Shown: positions 46,863-57,219, counted from the stretch's first letter. The stretch is 64,000 nt of DNA from Actinomycetota bacterium (GCA_018268595.1 JAFDWH010000002.1:1-64000), one strand, 5' to 3'. Numbers and translations are program-made. Notes: generated from the sequence alone by a model not told the origin.

Positions 46863-47330
46863 TCAGCGCGCGGCGGCGACGCCGCTGCGCGCGAAGCTGT
46901 CGAGCACGCCGTTCCAGCCTCTGGCGTGGTTGGCGCGCGAGGTCTCGTCGAGCAGGCCGGCGTGCTCGATCACGACGGTCGTGCGACCGGGCTCCTGCTC
47001 GCGGAACGTCACCGCGACCTCGCTCTCGTGGTTGGCGTAGGGGCCGGTCCCCTCCCACGCCCAGCTGTAGACGAGCCGCTCCGGCCGCGAGATCTCGCGG
47101 TAGGTGCCGTACACGACCATGTCGTCTCTGTCGGGCACCCGCATCTCGAGCCGGTAGCCGCCGCCGACGCGCAGGTCGAGCGCGGCGATCGTCACCTCGT
47201 GCGCCGGGTCGGCCTTCCACCAGCGCTTCAGCACCTCGGGGTTCGTCCAGGCGTCGAAGACGGCGTCGGCCGGCGCATCGAAGGTGCGCTCCACGCGCAC
47301 CGTGCCGGTGTCCACGTCAATGCTGCTCAT
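46863..47330 (-). CDS. SRPBCC (AHSA1-like) protein
   Basis: A 155-residue protein from ATG 47330. It has the START-like/Activator of Hsp90 pattern: VRVERTFDAPADAVFDAWTN, LKRWWKADPAHEVTIAALDL, RVGGGYRLEMR, and ETSRANHARGWNGVLDSFA near the C terminus. Members bind small hydrophobic ligands and are usually co-transcribed with an ArsR regulator, as here (four-base overlap with the gene upstream). Ligand unknown. Confidence 0.88.
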   Translation of the reverse strand: MSSIDVDTGTVRVERTFDAPADAVFDAWTNPEVLKRWWKADPAHEVTIAALDLRVGGGYRLEMRVPDRDDMVVYGTYREISRPERLVYSWAWEGTGPYANHESEVAVTFREQEPGRTTVVIEHAGLLDETSRANHARGWNGVLDSFARSGVAAAR

Positions 47331-47665
47331 GCTCCGTCCTCCTGCTCCTTGAGGAATTCCTCGACCACGTCGAGCTTGCGCTCCCACAGCGCCCGCTGTC
47401 TCGCGAGCCACGCGTACGCCTCCTCCAGCGAGGCGCCGTTGAGGCGCAGGCGGTGGGTGCGGCCGTCGATCACGCGCACGATCGCGCCCGCCTCCTCCAG
47501 CACCCTCAGGTGCTTGCTGATCGCGGGCTTGGAGACGGGGAAGTCGTGCGTCGCCTCGCCGACCGTCAGCTCGCCCTCCGCGAGCCGCTCGAGGATCGTG
47601 CGGCGCAGCGGGTGGGCGACGGCGACGAACGAGCGGTCGAGCGTCGCGGCTTGACTGTTAGCCAT
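47327..47665 (-). CDS. ArsR-family transcriptional regulator
   Basis: A 112-residue winged-helix protein from ATG 47665. It reads AVAHPLRRTILERLAEGELT, VGEATHDFPVSKPAISKHLR, VLEEAGAIVRVIDGRTHRLR: the ArsR helix-turn-helix and wing. No metal-site cysteines are present, as in members that pair with AHSA1 proteins. Its start codon lies inside the 20-bp palindrome 47656-47675, a probable autoregulatory operator. The trio ArsR-SRPBCC-YCII is one operon. Confidence 0.88.
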   Translation of the reverse strand: MANSQAATLDRSFVAVAHPLRRTILERLAEGELTVGEATHDFPVSKPAISKHLRVLEEAGAIVRVIDGRTHRLRLNGASLEEAYAWLARQRALWERKLDVVEEFLKEQEDGA

Positions 47666-47675
47666 ATGGTTAACA
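47656..47675. promoter_or_regulatory. 20-bp palindrome over the arsR-like start codon
   Basis: TGTTAGCCATATGGTTAACA equals its reverse complement at 18 of 20 bases and covers the ATG (47665-47663). It stands out as AT-rich in a GC-rich region. The position suits repression of its own operon by the ArsR protein, by blocking either transcription or translation start. Confidence 0.65.
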
Positions 47676-47732
47676 ATACGGACACCGGCGGTCGCGCGCA
47701 AGCCGGGCCATGCGAGCCGGGCGCGCGCCCGC

Positions 47733-49262
47733 TCAGGCGCGCACGCGCACGATGCGCGCGGCGGCGGGAGCGCCGCCTGCCGTCCCCGGCCGCACGAGCG
47801 TCACGTACGCGCTGCGGCCGGCGAGCGCCGTCGTCCACAGCAGTGTGTCGGTGCGGCCCGGCGTGCCGGGCGGGCAGCGGCTCGGCTCGCTGCCCTGCGT
47901 CGTGTAGCCGGGCTCGTGGCCGGCGTCGCGGCGCGCCGCGCTGCCGATCGTCAGCAGCGTGCGCGCGGCGCGCAGCGTGCGGGTGGAGACCATGCGCAGC
48001 CGCTGGCTGCAGTACGTCGCCTGCACGAACAGCAGGCGGCCGCCCGCGAGCGCCGGCTGCGAGAGCTGGCCGGTGCGCGTGGCGAGCACGATCCGGCGTC
48101 TGCGCGTCGCGAGGTTGGCGATCGCGATGCGGCTCGCGCCGCCCGTCGTCGCCGCGTAGGCGAGATGGTCGCCGGACAGCGCCGGACGGTCGATCGACGC
48201 GCGTCCCGCGCCGCCCGCGACGAGCCGCGCGACGCCGCGCGCGGCCGGCGTCGCCTTCGCGACCGGCAGCGGCAGCGCCCACAGCGCGTCCCCGCCGCCG
48301 CGCCGCGTGACGCGCCACACGAGCCAGCGGTCGGAGACCGCGAGCTGCGTCGCGCGCGGCGCGTCGAGCTGCGCGACGGTCGCCCCGCTCGCGCGGTCGC
48401 GCACCGCGAGCGTCGCGCCGGCGAGCGTCGCGACGTAGCGCCCGCCGACCGCGACCGCCCGCGCCGGCAGCTCGCTGCGCGCGTCGCCGCCGACCAGCAC
48501 CGCGCCGGCGCCGCCGAGCCGCTCGTAGGCGAGCAACGCGCCGGCCCGCGAGGGGTCGGTCCCGGCCGACACGACGAGCTGCGCGGCGCTCGCGCTGCCG
48601 CTCGCGAGGAACGCGACGGCGAGCGCGGCCAGCAGCGCGCCGTCGGCCAGTCGCAGGCGGCGCAGCAGCACCGGCCGCTCCGCCATCGCCAGCTCGAGCC
48701 GCTGCCCGAGCGTCGCGTAGCGCGGCGCCATCAGGATCACCGGCAGCGCGCGACCGGCGCCGAAGCCGAGGCCGATCAGCAGGCCGGCCTGCACGTCGCC
48801 GATCGCGACCGCGATCCCGGCGAGCGCCCACACCGCGAGCGTCAGCACGAACGTCGTGAAGCCGAGCCCGAGCAGCACGCCGTAGAGGCCGGCGGCGAGC
48901 GGCAGCGGCAGCGTGCGCCGCCACGGCTCCGGCACCTGACGGCGGATCTGCGGGACGATCCGCACGCCCCGCAGCTCGCCGAACGCGCACGCCAACGCGA
49001 CCGTTCCCGCGACGACCGCGCCCGCCTCGCTTCCCGCGCCGCCGAGCGCACGGCCCAGCGCGGCGAGTGCGGTGAACGTGATTGCGCCGCCGGCGAGCGC
49101 GCCGAGCGCGAACGTCGCGCAGCTCGTCGCGACCGTGCGGCCGCCGGCGTCGGCGCGGCGGCTGCCGAGCGTCTCGACCATCGAGAAGCCGCACGGCGAC
49201 CACGCGCCGGTGACGCCGGCGACGAACGCGGTCGCGAGCAGGATCGCGGCGGTCGCGCTCAT
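47733..49262 (-). CDS. MauF/CcdA-like membrane protein with C-terminal propeller-like domain
   Basis: A 509-residue protein. The first half (about 1-215) has six hydrophobic helices; the start GAWSPCGFSMVETLG resembles MauF (WSPCGWS) and CcdA-type thiol carriers. The second half, after a further hydrophobic segment, has repeated strand units (GALLAYERLGGAGAVLVGG, AVAVGGRYVATLAGATLAVR, DRWLVWRVTR, GDHLAYAATTGGAS, GGRLLFVQATYC), as in a beta-propeller. MADH large subunit MauB is also a propeller, so the fusion is notable. Cys pairs sit in the membrane part and in YCSQ/RCPPG. Function is inferred from its two neighbours. Confidence 0.62.
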   Translation of the reverse strand: MSATAAILLATAFVAGVTGAWSPCGFSMVETLGSRRADAGGRTVATSCATFALGALAGGAITFTALAALGRALGGAGSEAGAVVAGTVALACAFGELRGVRIVPQIRRQVPEPWRRTLPLPLAAGLYGVLLGLGFTTFVLTLAVWALAGIAVAIGDVQAGLLIGLGFGAGRALPVILMAPRYATLGQRLELAMAERPVLLRRLRLADGALLAALAVAFLASGSASAAQLVVSAGTDPSRAGALLAYERLGGAGAVLVGGDARSELPARAVAVGGRYVATLAGATLAVRDRASGATVAQLDAPRATQLAVSDRWLVWRVTRRGGGDALWALPLPVAKATPAARGVARLVAGGAGRASIDRPALSGDHLAYAATTGGASRIAIANLATRRRRIVLATRTGQLSQPALAGGRLLFVQATYCSQRLRMVSTRTLRAARTLLTIGSAARRDAGHEPGYTTQGSEPSRCPPGTPGRTDTLLWTTALAGRSAYVTLVRPGTAGGAPAAARIVRVRA

Positions 49263-49266
49263 GCGC

Positions 49267-49839
49267 TCAGCACGGCACCTGGGTCTGGAAGTACATGACG
49301 CAGAAGACCTTGCGACCGGCGTAGCAGTAGCCGGTCAGCGCGGCGTCGCCGTTGATGCGCGTCCGGTGGTAGCCGCAGCAGTCCATCAGGCGGCGCACCT
49401 TGCCGCCGCAGCAGCGATACCAGGAGCCGTCGACGCGCGTGGGGAAGCCGTATCTCTCCGGGATGCCGTCCTGGCAGACGCGCGTGCGCGGAGCCGGGGG
49501 GAGCGGGCGCCCGTCGGGGCCGGTGAGGCGGCGGCCGTGCTCGTCGAGCGGATGGCCCGAGCGGTCGACGGGGCGGCCGAGGTCGTCGACCGGGTGGCCG
49601 TCGCGGTGGCGCAACGGGTAGCCGTGGATGTCGACGCGCGGGATGCCGGTCGGGTGCGGGCAGGAGGCGGTCGTGTAGGTGTGTCCGCAGTAGTGGTAGG
49701 CCTCGGCGTCCTCCTCGCCGGCCGCGAGCGCGGCGGTGCCGGTGGCGGCCGCGATCAGCCAGGCGCTCGTGCGCGCGAGGAAGCCGCGGCGGTCGGTGTC
49801 GGCGGCGAGCGCGTCGCTGAGGCGGCGGCGGTCAGGCAT
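49267..49839 (-). CDS. Tat-exported Cys-rich protein resembling methylamine dehydrogenase light chain
   Basis: A 190-residue protein with a twin-arginine signal (DTDRRGFLARTSAWLIAAA). The mature part has ten cysteines, with CC pairs in SWYRCCGG and MDCCGYHRTR. MauA (MADH light chain) has the same DCCGY block and a Tat-type leader. MauA forms tryptophan tryptophylquinone from two Trp; here the mature part has only one Trp (in GSWYRCC), so standard TTQ cannot form. The middle is a Gly/His/Asp-rich repeat-like region (HGYPLRHRDGHPVDDLGRP). It lies between MauF-like and MauE/thioredoxin genes, which fit its oxidation or cofactor maturation. Confidence 0.6.
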   Translation of the reverse strand: MPDRRRLSDALAADTDRRGFLARTSAWLIAAATGTAALAAGEEDAEAYHYCGHTYTTASCPHPTGIPRVDIHGYPLRHRDGHPVDDLGRPVDRSGHPLDEHGRRLTGPDGRPLPPAPRTRVCQDGIPERYGFPTRVDGSWYRCCGGKVRRLMDCCGYHRTRINGDAALTGYCYAGRKVFCVMYFQTQVPC

Positions 49840-50758
49840 GGGCCGGCTCCCGCCGCTCGGCGTCGGGGCCGGGCTCGCGCTCGCGCTCCTCGCGTTGGCG
49901 CGCCTCGCCGGTCGCGACGAGCGCCTCGAGCTGGCGCGCGCTGTTGAACGTGCCCTGCGCGAGGACCGTCCCGTCGAGCGACAGCACGAGCGCGTAGGGG
50001 CTGCCCGGGATCGCGAGCGCGCGCCACACCGCCTGGTCCTCGACCTCGTCGAAGACCTCGACGGCGAGCAGCGGGTCGCGCCGCAGGGCGGCGACGGCCG
50101 GCTCGAGCGCCTGGCACATCGGACAGCCCTCGGAGGAGAAGACGGCGAGCGCGTGGCGCGCCGAGGGCTGCGGCACGAAGCGCTCGATCAGCGCGACGCG
50201 GCTGCCGCGCGCGGGTCCCTCGCCGTCGATCTCGAGCGGGAGCTGCGGCGGGAGCGCGCGGCGCAGCTCACCGACCTCGCGCGCGAGCGCGAGCAGCAGC
50301 AGCGCGAGCGCGGCGATCGCCGCGAGCGCGACGCCGAGCCCGGCGGCGAGCCACGCGTCGGTGCTCGGATCCGTGTCCGGGACGAGCGGCAGCGCTGCGT
50401 ACGCCGCCGCCAGCGCAAGCGTGCGGGCCAGCGCGCCGCGTGTCACGCGCGAGCGCGCGCCGAGGCAGCCGCACGGCTGGCCCGCCTTGCCGGCGCGCAG
50501 CGCGCGGGCGAGCAGCGCGGCGAACGCGAGCATCAGGCCGGCCGCCGCCCACGCGGCAGCGTCGATGCCGGCCGCGACGCCGACACCCAGCAGCGCCTCC
50601 GCGGCGACCGCGGCGCCCCACGCGAGCGAGCGCGCCCGCGGTGCGCGCAGGCCGAACGTCGCGAGCGCCGCGCGCGTGCGGGCGGGGGCAGCCAGCTTCG
50701 CACCCGCCGAGCCGAGCAGCACCAGCCCGAGCGCCACGTCCGCGATCGTCGCCAGCAT
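49832..50758 (-). CDS. MauE/DoxX-like membrane protein fused to a thioredoxin domain
   Basis: A 308-residue protein; ATG 50758 is used, and a GTG four codons upstream is possible. The N-terminal half has four hydrophobic helices and the MauE mark GQPCGCLGARS. The C-terminal half is a thioredoxin-like domain with active site SSEGCPMCQALEP, as in MauD. It thus combines MauE and MauD, which in mau operons are needed for disulfide formation and stability of the light chain. It overlaps the MauA-like gene by eight bases. Confidence 0.75.
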   Translation of the reverse strand: MLATIADVALGLVLLGSAGAKLAAPARTRAALATFGLRAPRARSLAWGAAVAAEALLGVGVAAGIDAAAWAAAGLMLAFAALLARALRAGKAGQPCGCLGARSRVTRGALARTLALAAAYAALPLVPDTDPSTDAWLAAGLGVALAAIAALALLLLALAREVGELRRALPPQLPLEIDGEGPARGSRVALIERFVPQPSARHALAVFSSEGCPMCQALEPAVAALRRDPLLAVEVFDEVEDQAVWRALAIPGSPYALVLSLDGTVLAQGTFNSARQLEALVATGEARQREEREREPGPDAERREPAHA

Positions 50759-50853: not shown

Positions 50854-50925
50854 GGGGGCGTGGTGCTAACGGGAACACGCGGCCTTTGCAAGGCTGAGTT
50901 GGGGGTTCGATTCCCCCCGCCTCCA
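50854..50925 (+). tRNA. tRNA-Ala (anticodon TGC)
   Basis: The acceptor GGGGGCG (50854-50860) pairs with CGCCTCC (50918-50924) and contains the G3-U70 pair that marks alanine tRNA. The anticodon arm is CGGCC-TTTGCAA-GGCTG, with TGC at 50887-50889. The T-arm is GGGGG-TTCGATT-CCCCC, and A73 is 50925. The D-arm is weak: three pairs (GTG/CAC), T at position 14 instead of A, and a four-base variable loop. CCA is not encoded. TTAGAC about 17 bases upstream may be its -10 element. Confidence 0.8.
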
Positions 50926-50929: not shown

Positions 50930-51458
50930 ACGGGAAACGGTTGCAATCGATGGCCTTCCTGTGTCCTGACGAGCGCCCGCGACAGCGCCTGCGGCCATTG
51001 CTGACGCTCATCGGCGACGTCGCCGATCGGGATGCCCCAGCCGCGGGTGGGGCTCAGGCGAGGCGCAGGACCTGCAGGAAGACGCGGCGCGTAAGAACAG
51101 GCCGACAGCCCTTCTGACCCGTCCGTGGAAACGCCTGCGGCTCTCGATATCCGACACCAGAGCTGTCCTCTAAGAGTCCTAGAGCGTTGGCGCCAGACAA
51201 CTCCGGCACCGCCGATCGCCGGCGACCGAGCGTGGTAGATGCTCGCACGGAATTCGACCGGTCTGCCAAGTTTGAGCATTGACAAAGCTCAGACCTCCGA
51301 CATAGGTTGCGCGGCGCGAAGCCGGCGGGAGGCGCTCGGCAGCGTGGGGGCCGCCGTGTGTTGCGGTCTCCTCCGATGGATCCGTGACGAGTTCTTCGCT
51401 GGAGGCTTCGACGTTGGGCACATTGAGGACGTGGGCAGACAGACGGGTTGCGGGCCGA
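50926..51458. other. Gene-free stretch between tRNA-Ala and the RHS gene
   Basis: About 530 bases without a convincing gene: frames here translate to low-complexity or tRNA-shadow peptides. The clearest element is a promoter-like pair TTGACA (51279-51284) and TAGGTT (51303-51308) with 18 bases between, pointing at the RHS gene and leaving a leader of about 150 bases. No integrase fragment could be read here. Confidence 0.45.
51279..51308 (+). promoter_or_regulatory. Candidate promoter of the RHS gene
   Basis: A perfect -35 hexamer TTGACA, an 18-base spacer and a 4-of-6 -10 hexamer TAGGTT. It is the only good housekeeping-type promoter seen between the tRNA and the RHS reading frame. Confidence 0.45.
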
Positions 51459-52598
51459 ATGAGTGCCCGCGGCTTACGTGTAGGGGCCCGGAGACATCGG
51501 CGCCGACGTATGGGCGCTTCACGACTCGCGGTTCTGCTTCCTGCGCTCGCAGTTCTGTCCGCGGCGGTGTGCTCGGCGGCTGCGTATGCGACGCCGCCGT
51601 CGTCGGCGATTCGCTACGGCTACGACGCGGCGGGGGAGCTGAAGTCGGTCACGGACCCCTCCGACATGACGGCGCTGTTCGGTTGGGACTCTGTCGGCAA
51701 CCTGCTTTCGATCGGCAATCAGCCGGCCGGTGCGTTGTCGTTGATCCAGGTGGCGCCCGTTCAAGGGTCGGCTGGGGACCGCGTCACGCTCTACGGGACG
51801 GGATTCAGCTCGAATGCGACCGACGACGCGGTGTCGTTCAACGGGACGGCTGCGTCGGTGGTGTCGGCAACCGCGTGGGAGCTTGTCGTGACCGTGCCGG
51901 CGGGGGCGACGACCGGCCCGGTGAGCGTGACGACGCCGTCGGGCTCGGCGACGAGCGACGAGTCGTTCACGGTTGTCGCGCGTCCGGCGATCACGGGGAT
52001 CTCGCCGACCGTCGTGAACGCGGGGGACACCGTCACGGTCGGAGGCTCGGCGTTCGACTCGGCGCCGGCGAACGACACGTTGATCGTCAACCGCACGCAC
52101 GTCGACGTCGCCTCCGCGTCTGCGGCGGCGCTGTCGTTCGTCGCTCCGGCGATCGGCTCGGGACCGGTCTCGGTGGCGACGCCGGATGGTCAGGCGACGG
52201 GGCCGGATCTGTTCATCGCGCCCTCGGGGCGCACCGCGGCCAGTGTTGCCACGACGGATCGTGAGAGTCGGGGACGTCCGCACGGTGAGCATCCCGACGG
52301 CCGGCAAGGTCGCGCTCGTGGTCTTCGACGGCAGCACCGGACAGCAGCTGCTGATCCAAACGTCGCAGAGCACCTTCGCGTCGGCCCCGCGCGTGTCCGT
52401 TCAGAGTCCGAACGGCTCGACGCTCGTGGCGGCCACGACGAACAGCTTCGTCGACCAGTTCACGCTGCCGACGAGCGGCACGTACACGATCATGGTCGAC
52501 GCCTCGAGCACCGGAGCCGGCAGCATCTCGCTCGCGCTCAAGAGCGCGACCGACGTGACGACGACGGTGACGCCGTCGGCGACCGGCGGAAGAGGTGA
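51459..52598 (+). pseudogene. RHS/YD-repeat protein, N-terminal fragment (frameshifted)
   Basis: ATG 51459 (or 51510) gives a clear signal peptide: MGASRLAVLLPALAVLSAAV. Next come a YD-repeat-like pair (RYGYDAAGELKSVTDPSD, ALFGWDSVGNLLSIGNQP) and two IPT/TIG domains (IQVAPVQGSAGDRVTLYGTG; ITGISPTVVNAGDTVTVGGS). Sensible coding ends near 52260 (DLFIAPSGRTAASVATTD); beyond that this frame is Arg/His-rich nonsense up to the stop, while the next frame takes over. Together with the two following fragments it was once one secreted giant protein. Confidence 0.7.
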
Positions 52599-55500
52599 GC
52601 TGTCGACGACGCTCGCCGGTCAGAACATGGCGTTCGCGTTCGACGGCAGACAGGGCCAGCGGATCGCGTTCGAAGAGGGGTTCCCGGCCGGGCTCTCGCA
52701 CGCGCTCTCGCTGCGCAAGCCGGACGGCACCGCGTTGTGGGGCCCGACGTTCACGTCGAGCTCGCTGGGTTACTACTGGGTCGACGTGCAGACGCTTCCG
52801 GCGGACGGCACGTACACGATCTACTCCGACCCGAGCGGGACGGCGACCTCGTCCTCGACGCAGGTCACGGCCTACGACGTGCCGGCGGACGTGAGCGGCA
52901 CGCTGGCGCCGTCGCAGGCGGGCGACGCGAGGACCTTCGCGACGACGCCGGGGCAAAACGCGGTCTACACGATCAACGGCACGGCCGGGCAGCGCGTCTC
53001 GCTGCTGGTGAGAGGCTCGACGTATCCGCGGTTGCCGAACGTGTCGATCGTCAAGCCGGACGGGTCGAACCTCGTCGCGCCGTCGAGCACGAGCTTCGTG
53101 GACGCGGTGGCGCTGCCCAGCAGCGGCACCTACAGAGTGGTCGTGGATCCGCAGTACGCGGACGGCGGTCAGCTGACGCTGACGGCGTACGACGCCGCTG
53201 ATGCGACGGCTGCGGTGACGCCGTCGGCGACGGGTGGGAGCGGCGAGCTCGCGACGTCAGTGCCGGGTCAGAACGTGGCGTTCACGTTCACGGGCACGCA
53301 GGGTCAGCGGATCGCGTTCGAAGAGGGCTTTCCGGCATCGCTGTCGCACTCGGTCACGCTGCGCAAGCCGGACGGCAGCGCCTTGTCTGGCCCGACGTTC
53401 ACGAGCAGCTCGCTCGGCTTCTACTGGCTTGACGCCCAGACGCTGCCGATGAGCGGGACGTACACGCTCTACTTCGACATCAGCGGGACGGCGACGTCGT
53501 CCTCGACGCGGGTGAAGGTCTACGACGTGCCGGCGGACGCGGGCGGCACGTTGGCGCCGTCGGCGGCGGGCGACTCGGCGACCTTCTCGACCACGCCGGC
53601 GCAGAACGCGGCCTATACGTTCAGCGGCAGCGCCGGCCAGCGGATCTCGCTGAGCGTGAGAGGGTCGACGTATCCGCGGCTGCCATACCTCTCGATCGTC
53701 AAGCCCGACGGGTCGACGCTGGTCTCGCCGACCAGCACGAGCTTCGTCGACGCGGTCACGCTGCCGAGCACGGGTACCTACAGAGTGGTGGCCGACCCGC
53801 AGTTCGCCGACTCCGGGCAGCTGACCCTGACGGCCTACGACGCGAGCGACGCGACGACGAGCGTCACGCCGTCCGCCGCGGGCACGGACGCGAGACTCTC
53901 GACGAGCGCGCCGGGGCAGAACATGGCGTTCACGTTCAGCGGCACGGCCGGGCAGCGGATCGCGTTCAAGGAGGCATTCCCGACGAGCGTGGACCACTAC
54001 CTGTCGCTCAAGAAGCCGGACGGCACCGCGCTCTGGGGTCCGACGTTCATCAGCGGCAGCTGGGGTGGCTACGCGGTCGACACGAAGACGCTGCCGGTGA
54101 ACGGCACGTACACGATCTACGCCGATCCGACCGCAAGCCTGACGTCGTCCTCGACGACCGTGACGGTCTACGACGTGCCGGCGGACGTGAGCGGCACGCT
54201 GACGCCGTCGCAGACGGGCGACGCGGTGACGCCAGCGACGACGCCCGGGCAGAACGCGGTCTACACGTTCAGCGGGACGGCCGGGCAGCGCGTCTCAATC
54301 GCGGCCGCCAGCTCGACCTATCCCAACCTTCCGAAGCTCTCGATCGTCAAGCCCGACGGATCGAACCTCGTCGCGCCGACCAGCACGAGCTTCGTCGACG
54401 CGGTGAGCCTGCCGAGCAGCGGGACCTACAGAGTGGTGGTCGACCCGCAGAACCTCGACGCCGGCCAGGTGAGAGTCACGGCCTACGACGCGGCGGACGC
54501 GACGATGGCGGTGACGCCCTCTGCCTCGGGTGGTGCGGGGGATCTCTCCACTGTGGCGCCTGGGCAGAACATGGCGTTCACGTTCACTGGGACGGCGGGC
54601 CAGGTGATCGCGTTCAAGGAGCTGTTCCCGACCACCGTCAACCACTACCTCTCGATCAGGAAGCCCGACGGCAGCAACCTGTGGAGCCCGACGTCGATCC
54701 TCGGAGGCTGGGGCGGCTATTGGGTCGACAAGACGACCCTGCCGGCGAGCGGCACCTACACGATCTACGCCGACCCGAACGGCTCGCTGACGTCGACCTC
54801 GAACAGCATTGCCCTCTACGCGGTCCCGCCCGACGTGACCGGGACGATGAGCATCGGCGGGCCGGCCGTCAGCTTCACGACGACGCCCGCGCAGAACGCG
54901 AGCTTCACGTTCTCCTCGCCGGCGAACAAGACGATCCACCTGAGCTTCTCCAACGTGACGGAGACGGCGAACTGGACGCTCAAGAACCCCAGCGGCGGCA
55001 CGGTCACGAGCAGCACCATCAACAGCGGCGGCACGGCGACCGTCACCGCGACGTTGGTAACCGCGGGCACGTACACGCTCGTGGTCGATCCGCAGAACAA
55101 CGCGGGCGGCGGGATGACGCTGACGCTGACCGACCCGCCCGGCTTCACGCGGCCGTTCATCACCGACACGACGCTGCCGGCGGTGTTCCGAGAGCCGCCC
55201 TCGATCCACGCGATCATGGCGCGCCTGCATTGGGGTCGCCCGCTTCGCTGCGACCCGCAGCGGCCGCGTCACGCACCCGACGGCGCCCGCATGCGGACCC
55301 GCACGACTGCCTGCGCGAGCAGCGCCGCGACACCCCACACGGTCTTCCACGTCCCGTCCGACGTGCGGCGCCGACTGCAGCTCGACGGGCCGGCTCGCGA
55401 CGTCGCGATCGACCAGCCGGGCCAGAAGGCCACGGTCCAGTTCACCGCGCCTGACAGAGGTCGGGTCGCGCTCCACGTCGAGCGGGCGAGCGCAGGCGCC

Positions 55501-57219
55501 TACCTCTTCCTGCTCGGGCCCGACGGCCGCAAGGCGATGGCGCCGCGCCCGCTTCCACGCGGTCCTGAGACCGTTGCGCTGCAGCTGCGCGAGGGCGGCG
55601 CGTACGTCGCGCTGATCCTCCCGGCCCGTGGCGCTCCCGCCTCATTCCGCCTGCGGCTTGCGACGCCGGAAGGCGACGCTCGCTCACGGCGTGCCTCCGC
55701 GGCCGCGAGAGGCCACCCGCACGGCCGCGCGACCGACACGCGTGCGCGACGCCGGACGCCGAGACGGCAGCGCCGAGCGGCCAGGCGGTCTGTGCAGCGC
55801 CGGTCCGCAGACCACGCGCGCTCTCGCGCGCATCGGCGCCAGCGTCTGCCCCTGTCGAACGTCGACCGCTCGCACGCGGCTCTGCACGTCCAGTTCCGCC
55901 CGGGCGTTGCGCGCACGTGGATCCCGGCGGGCGTGAACCTGCGCGGCGATTGGGAGACGGGACGGTCGTCCTCGCCGTGGCAGCAGATTGGGGAGCTGCA
56001 GGCGCCGGCCGGCGTCACCGCGCTCGCCGGCCAGGCGCTGCGGCTGGACGGGACGCCGCTCGCGGGCGTGACGATGGCGATCGACGGCAGCAGAGCGAGC
56101 GCGCGAACCGATCGCAACGGACGCTTCCTGCTCGAGGGCGCACCCGCCGGCCACCACGTGCTGACGATCGACGGTGGCACGGTCAAGGACCGCGGGGCGC
56201 GCTACGGCTTCTTCAAGGTCGGCGTCGACCTGCACGCCGGGCAGACCGTCGACCTGGGCTTCCCGGTCTGGATGACGCAGCTCGATCGCGTCGGCAACAC
56301 GCACGTCGAGAGCCCGACGCGGCGCGACGTCGTGCTGAGGACGCCGCGCATCCCGGGGCTGGAGGTGCGGATCCCCGCAGGGTCCACGATCCGCGACCGC
56401 AACGGGCGCCTCGTGCACGACCTGAACATCACGCAGGTGCCGGTGGACCGGCCGCCGTTCCCGTTGCCGCCGCACGTCCAGGTGCCGCTGTACTTCACGG
56501 TGCAGCCGGGCGGCGCCTACCTGAGCAAGGGCGCGCAGATCATCTACCCGAACTACACGCACCTCCCAGCCAGACAGCGCGTGGACTTCTGGAACTACGA
56601 CGCGGAGGGAAGAGGCTGGTACGTCTATGGCCGCGGCACGGTCAGCGACGACGCCAAGCAGGTCATCCCGGACCCGGACGTGCGGGTGTGGGAGTTCACC
56701 GGCGCGATGATCAGCAGCAGCCCGAGCCCGCCGGGCGTCGGCCCGGTGCCCGGCGGCGGCTCCAGCGACGGAGACCCGGTCGACCTGCAGACGGGCCTGT
56801 TCGTCTACCGCAAGACCGACCTGTTCCTGCCCGACTCGGCGCTGCCGATCGCCGTGCAGCGCACGTACCGTCCCAACGACAGCAACTCATACGCGTTCGG
56901 GGTTGGGACGACGCTCAAGTACGACATGCGGTTGTGGTCGGTGCACCTCGCCTGGGACGAGCTGGGACGGCGCGGTGTACGAGGCGCAGAACGCGCCGGG
57001 CGAGTTCTACGGCTCGAAGTTCGTCTTCAACGGCGCCGTGCCGGGATGGGACCTGACGCTCAGAGACGGCACCGTGTACCGGTTCGGCGACAACGCGCCG
57101 CTGCAGGCGATCATCGACCGCTACGGCAACACGCTCACGCTCACCCGCTCCGCGGGACAGAACGGCAACATCACGAGAGTCACGGCGCCCAACGGACGCT
57201 GGGTCAGATTCGCCTATGA
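52261..57219 (+). pseudogene. RHS/YD-repeat protein, central fragment (tandem beta-domains, carboxypeptidase-like region)
   Basis: Sensible coding resumes at 52261 (RVGDVRTVSIPTAGKVALVV). Four 216-residue tandem repeats follow, each two Ig/PPC-like beta units (GQNMAFTFTGTAGQRIAF..., GTYTIYADP). Then comes a degraded Arg-rich segment (about 55690-55850), a carboxypeptidase-regulatory-like domain (LRLDGTPLAGVTMAIDGSRA, GRFLLEGAPAGHHVLTIDGG), and the RHS lead-in PVDLQTGLFVYRKTDLFLPD. Sense is lost after YDMRLWSVHLAWDELG near 56960; the rest up to 57219 is out of frame. The segment before the loss appears to lack about 25 residues of the usual RHS lead-in. Confidence 0.7.
52567..55140 (+). repeat. 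Tandem repeat, exact 648-bp period, four units
   Basis: The start word GTGACGCC (or GTCACGCC) recurs at 52567, 53215, 53863 and 54511, spaced exactly 648 bp (216 codons). Units 1-3 are closely alike; unit 4 diverges in its second half. Each unit encodes an A part (VTPSATGG...GQNMAFTF...) and a B part (DVPADVSGTLAPS...GQNAVYTF...). Exact spacing points to recent duplication and recombination. Confidence 0.85.

Follow-up and report, generated by a model that had tools for sequence, protein, structure and literature searches.

The stretch of DNA analysed here (the window), 64,000 nucleotides from an Actinomycetota bacterium (GCA_018268595.1, JAFDWH010000002.1:1-64000; source genome 3.57 Mb, 98.9% complete), carries at positions 47733-50758 a compact cassette related to the mau genes of methylamine dehydrogenase (MADH). 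Its three open reading frames (ORFs), termed P0001, P0002 and P0003, all lie on the minus strand and are tightly packed. The three proteins had been described in the original prediction, and the locus proved to be no product of chance. P0001 and P0002 overlap by 8 bp and P0002 and P0003 are separated by 4 bp, so co-transcription and translational coupling of the trio are likely. A scan for promoters and terminators found none.

P0001 (49832-50758, 308 residues) is a fusion of a MauE membrane domain and a MauD-like thioredoxin domain. The MauE domain passes the curated cut-off of PF07291 (E 1.3e-14, 55 bits against a cut-off of 27), while the thioredoxin half matches Paracoccus MauD in BLASTP, membrane anchor included (E 2e-7), although the protein stays below the equivalog cut-off of the MauD model TIGR02661 (21.7 against 188.6 bits). 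The CxC motif of the MauE domain (Cys96 and Cys98, 50465-50473) is retained in 38/38 aligned homologues and the thioredoxin active site CPMC (Cys212 and Cys215, 50114-50125) in 52/52. The MauE-thioredoxin fusion originally proposed for this gene is thus borne out and, as judged from sequence, the homology of the cassette to MauE, MauD and MauF is solid.

P0003 (47733-49262, 509 residues) joins a MauF homologue to a β-propeller. Its N-terminal half aligns with Paracoccus MauF over 208 columns at 33% identity (BLASTP E 2e-8) and shares the WSPCG and QVP motifs; none of the library models searched matches Paracoccus MauF itself. This half had initially been called MauF/CcdA-like, and the MauF part of that description holds whereas the CcdA part does not, as there is no Pfam match to DsbD or CcdA and the MauF alignment contains one conserved Cys, where CcdA carries a Cys pair. 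The C-terminal half (residues 228-509, 47736-48581) had been described as propeller-like, in agreement with its AlphaFold2 (AF2) model, which is a β-propeller (predicted local distance difference test (pLDDT) 88.5, predicted TM-score 0.87). Foldseek aligned this model with prolyl oligopeptidase and TolB, the MADH heavy chain (2gc4_A) appearing at rank 42, and a sequence profile relates it to TolB (E 7e-5). It has no Pfam match and so is not recognised as a MADH heavy chain (PF06433); the fold is generic. At one related locus (L168) the propeller is encoded on its own, probably with a signal peptide, suggesting that the propeller of P0003 is extracytoplasmic.

The conserved Cys of P0003 is Cys24 in the motif WSPCGFS, encoded by TGC at 49191-49193. 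A search of the phylum identified MauF in 75/396 genomes. Its query alignment (A5), from which the later MauF hidden Markov model was also derived, includes one row with a few hand-entered N-terminal residues, reading Cys and Phe where the DNA has TGA and Leu, and the codons of the WSP(C/U)G position were taken from the DNA, not from that alignment. Over 75 distinct contexts the codon is TGA in 48, TGC in 25 and TGT in 2, and never TAA or TAG. Many MauF frames stop directly after WSP and resume at the following Gly, and no other stop interrupts the conserved MauF region in 9,880 codons. The TGA form is found in many Actinomycetota, in Thermomicrobium roseum (T. roseum), in genome G451 and at most loci encoding the LGFP-type proteins described below, while the Cys form is found in the window, Conexibacter, Solirubrobacter and Paracoccus. 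As the window holds the Cys form, the Sec form could not have been noticed in the original prediction. On the 3' side of the TGA, an alignment of 26 sequences (A6) reveals a hairpin whose helix of seven pairs, joining columns 29-35 to 41-47, is 96.7% paired and whose loop lies ~35-38 nt from the TGA. Both-sided changes occur in five of the helix pairs, all five measures exceed those of 500/500 shuffles, and slid registers all score far lower. In contrast, pairing at the same positions falls to 40.1% in 21 Cys genes, a value not above that of shuffles, and covariation is absent. Relative to mononucleotide shuffles, folding energies give a mean z of -1.13 for TGA and +0.03 for Cys genes (p 2.7e-5). 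A tRNA-Sec, scored at or above a threshold of 57 bits that we drew between true and background matches, was detected in 29/36 TGA genomes against 12/24 Cys genomes (Fisher p 0.022), and SelB exceeds its cut-off in 30/36 against 11/24 (Fisher p 0.004), p values that are generous, the genomes being related to one another. The genome of the window also encodes tRNA-Sec and SelB side by side (G000:C28 31673-32881), though its own MauF is of the Cys form.

In T. roseum the in-frame TGA of MauF lies at NC_011961.1 position 479325 (L161 1326), and the public gene, TRD_RS11410, begins just downstream of it. This annotated start would fit an alternative in which the TGA is not read as selenocysteine, the genes starting instead at a downstream ATG (SMVET) or being broken. 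Such a reading is extremely improbable, however, considering that the frame ahead of the TGA still specifies the shared membrane segment and WSP motif, that the stop is exclusively TGA in a region otherwise free of stops, that the covarying hairpin is limited to TGA genes and that the selenocysteine machinery is enriched in their genomes. As read from the codons, selenocysteine and Cys exchange at one conserved position of MauF, which would define a Sec/Cys redox family with the window copy in the Cys form. This exchange predicts a catalytic thiol or selenol in MauF, which would accordingly act as a thiol/selenol redox enzyme. We know of no function assigned to MauF. The TGA-type genes resemble bacterial selenoprotein genes bearing a selenocysteine insertion sequence hairpin 3' of UGA, in the TGA at a Cys position, the covarying hairpin, tRNA-Sec and SelB. 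In the open-licence literature searched, MauF was not found as a member of the selenoprotein genes and no report of selenocysteine in MauF was found, which does not prove that none exists.

P0002 (49267-49839, 190 residues) occupies the MauA position and bears a twin-arginine translocation (Tat) signal with the sequence RRGFL. As originally counted, the mature protein contains ten Cys, all past the Tat signal (residues 51, 60, 122, 143, 144, 154, 155, 172, 180 and 190), and a single Trp (Trp140, 49420-49422). An alignment of 56 homologues shows striking conservation, with the ten Cys, Trp140, Asp153-Cys154-Cys155 (DCC, 49375-49383), Asn163-Gly-Asp, Gly-Tyr171-Cys (GYC; Tyr171 at 49327-49329), Cys180, Tyr183 and the final Cys all invariant (56/56), and all but two of the homologues have exactly ten Cys. 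A lack of conservation at the Trp and DCCGY positions had been named at the outset as grounds for refutation; the Trp and the DCC residues are unchanged throughout. A profile of the family retrieved nothing relevant from the PDB sequences, and a search of plasmids for P0002 found none.

The original prediction compared P0002 with the MADH light chain. By curated models it is not one: neither P0002 nor any of 21 family members matches PF02975 or TIGR02659, and PF02975 exceeds its cut-off in 0/296 phylum genomes, with only noise in the source genome and the phylum. Comparison of the P0002 family with MADH itself is not significant by hhalign, nor are sequence-profile searches between the family and light chains. 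A connection appears through intermediates. Two light chains tested from T. roseum pass PF02975, and those light chains align with MADH at 98.6% (hhalign); the P0002 family aligns with them at 27% (score 26.6), a score reached by 0/400 column shuffles (best 23.1). This alignment places Trp140 on MADH Trp57 and the DCC block on Asp76-Cys77-Cys78, while Tyr171 falls on Trp108 only at a relaxed threshold, a register of low confidence. A further family with a domain of the cell-wall-binding-2 (CWB2) type (L225/L226) aligns with the P0002 family at 94% (hhalign), and one CWB2-type member matches TIGR02659 at E 1.1e-5, far under its cut-off. Superposition of the P0002 model on the MADH light chain 1mda_L by VIA-align gave a Z of 2.1, among eight weak rows, and is not counted as proof. 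P0002 is thus at best a remote relative of the light chain, linked to it through the T. roseum proteins and the cell-wall-binding family, and the descent first proposed, though probable by way of these intermediates, is weakly supported.

The known chemistry of the tryptophan tryptophylquinone (TTQ) cofactor appears unlikely in P0002, given one mature Trp, a Tyr at the Trp108 position, no MauG and no electron carrier among the neighbours, in line with what had been predicted from the single Trp and the lack of MauG and of a separate MauB. MauG (PF03150) has 0 matches in the 98.9%-complete source genome and 0 in 12 other genomes or records, and the survey of conserved neighbours revealed no cytochrome, cupredoxin or other electron carrier recurring beside the cassette genes. 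P0002 might instead be a quinoprotein whose new cofactor is built from Trp140 and Tyr171, two aromatic residues that occupy the positions of TTQ Trp57 and Trp108. Both residues are invariant, the light-chain relatives of T. roseum and G451 have Trp at both positions, and a propeller partner is at hand. The absence of MauG and of the electron carriers nevertheless speaks against such a cofactor, as do the low confidence of the Trp108 alignment, the Gln that precedes the Cys equivalent to that of GYC in LGFP relatives and the lack of a propeller in some relatives, making this reading quite improbable. That P0002 and its relatives would carry a protein-derived Trp140-Tyr171 cofactor made without MauG, with MauF, in its Sec or Cys form, aiding maturation, is slightly more doubtful still. 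Conservation is the sole positive evidence for the new cross-linked or quinone cofactor originally envisaged, which is not supported.

Close homologues of P0002 are present in 25/151 related genomes and at 53 loci of named genomes, the named relatives of the window locus belonging to Conexibacter, Solirubrobacter and metagenome-assembled genomes of Thermoleophilia, which would put the window in the Solirubrobacterales. A MauD homologue lies upstream in 52/53 and a MauF homologue downstream in 48/53 of these loci, several of the exceptions being contig ends. The three genes thus travel together, a point that the original prediction had put forward for a survey, and the trio is conserved across the Solirubrobacterales, where no neighbour beyond it is conserved. 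In a more distant group the genes are ordered D-A-F and the propeller is missing, and some members have a MauE-MauF fusion, whereas genome G451 has the full order D-A-F-B-E with a B that passes PF06433. At 11 loci (within L090-L102) the D-A-F genes lie near a gene for a conserved, exported protein that has a DPNDTRG...LD motif and no convincing Pfam match. Further MauF loci were fetched because the P0002 profile finds no match there. At 23 of these 29 a nearby gene, usually accompanied by MauE and MauD, encodes a protein rich in Cys that carries a GWW or WYAxGCC motif, and several of these proteins are large, Tat-exported and equipped with LGFP or cell-wall-binding-2 repeats.

When compared with the mau operon of Paracoccus denitrificans (MauF, MauB, MauE, MauD, MauA), the cassette shares the MauE, MauD and MauF homology, a propeller and, in the place of MauA, a Tat-exported Cys-rich protein. 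It differs in that E-D and F-propeller are fused, in the absence of MauG, amicyanin and MauJ alongside, in a P0002 that has no second TTQ Trp and does not pass the MauA models, and in a propeller not recognised as MauB. In addition, the MADH light chain has six disulfides, whereas the ten Cys of P0002 allow at most five. The T. roseum megaplasmid (NC_011961.1) likewise combines MauF, MauD and MauE with light-chain-like and propeller proteins, and no MauG is on the record. In contrast to the window, however, several light-chain-like genes adjoin propeller-like genes there (L153 4905-9953, L161 3700-9353), both TTQ Trp are kept and MauF has the Sec codon. Some of these light-chain-like genes are unannotated. 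The LGFP/CW_binding_2 proteins of Actinomycetota with a Cys-rich N-terminal domain resemble P0002 in being Tat-exported with MauE, MauD and MauF alongside, but have cell-wall repeats in place of a membrane-tethered propeller, and their MauF is mostly of the Sec form.

In Streptomyces, MauE and MauD homologues next to precursors with at least eight Cys have been proposed as candidate clusters of ribosomally synthesised and post-translationally modified peptides (RiPPs) (PMC7794033). Those clusters similarly place MauE/MauD beside a small Cys-rich protein outside MADH, and in the parts of that paper available to us MauF, a propeller and selenocysteine are not reported. By this analogy P0002 would be a RiPP-like precursor with the Mau proteins as its modifying enzymes. 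However, P0002 is a Tat protein of 190 residues, its ten Cys and C-terminal half show conservation all along the mature chain, nothing in it looks like a variable core peptide, and no peptidase or RiPP enzyme is found among the conserved neighbours, which renders this explanation very improbable.

Taken as a whole, the cassette is probably a dedicated export and oxidative-maturation system derived from the Mau set, whose product would be a disulfide-rich module of the envelope or surface and not a TTQ amine dehydrogenase. In the proposed mechanism, Tat would export the P0002 precursor, and the CPMC thioredoxin, coupled to the membrane through the CxC of MauE, would act with the thiol or selenol of MauF (Cys24 in the window, Sec in other genomes) to form or proofread five disulfides. 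Mature P0002 may then dock on the propeller tethered by MauF, by analogy with the MADH light chain on its heavy chain. A role for MauE in making the disulfides of the MADH β-subunit has been put forward as speculation, and the exact function of MauD called unclear, in the same source (PMC7794033). An envelope or surface module is the most likely product because related domains in other Actinomycetota occur joined to LGFP or cell-wall-binding-2 repeats, with MauE, MauD and MauF beside them; the disulfide-rich surface protein, raised at the outset as an alternative, is thus favoured.

The same components could also work in the opposite sense, the MauF/MauD part sending electrons outward in a DsbD-like manner so that the cassette would reduce or isomerise the disulfides of P0002 instead of forming them. 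MauF is a membrane protein with a single conserved Cys/Sec that travels with a thioredoxin domain, and Sec is frequent in the active sites of oxidoreductases (PMC1794560), both of which suit this alternative. On the other hand, an exported protein with ten invariant Cys would need its disulfides to be formed, MauF has no Pfam match to DsbD/CcdA and published work (PMC7794033) names MauE as the proposed partner in forming disulfides. Outward electron flow is therefore unlikely, although less so than the other alternatives considered here. Several observations weigh against oxidative maturation of a surface module as set out above. The sequences are compatible with either direction of electron flow, oxidising or reducing/isomerising, and the invariance of the Trp and Tyr of P0002 finds no explanation in a non-enzymatic role. 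P0002 itself has no cell-wall module, its surface location being deduced from relatives, and its AF2 model is moderate (pLDDT 73.5), with no convincing known fold (nothing by Foldseek, weak rows by VIA-align). Docking on the propeller is suggested by analogy, and some relatives, such as L099, L171, L172 and L174, have no propeller.

The surroundings of the cassette include, just upstream of it, a plus-strand tRNA-Ala (TGC; 50854-50925), followed at 51384-57219 by long, repetitive ORFs whose sequence looks YD/RHS-like and IPT/TIG-like by eye. On the other side, at 46863-47701, an ArsR-like regulator and a START/SRPBCC-like ORF were likewise recognised by eye, and neither is a conserved neighbour.

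From the occurrence of a Sec codon at an invariant position of MauF in numerous bacteria, the residue is predicted to be a catalytic redox centre, and through this Sec/Cys site a long-open step of MADH biogenesis becomes directly testable. The annotated start of TGA-type MauF genes may be placed too late, as it is in T. roseum. More broadly, Mau maturation genes accompany exported, Cys-rich and probably cell-surface proteins across the Actinomycetota, far outside methylamine metabolism.
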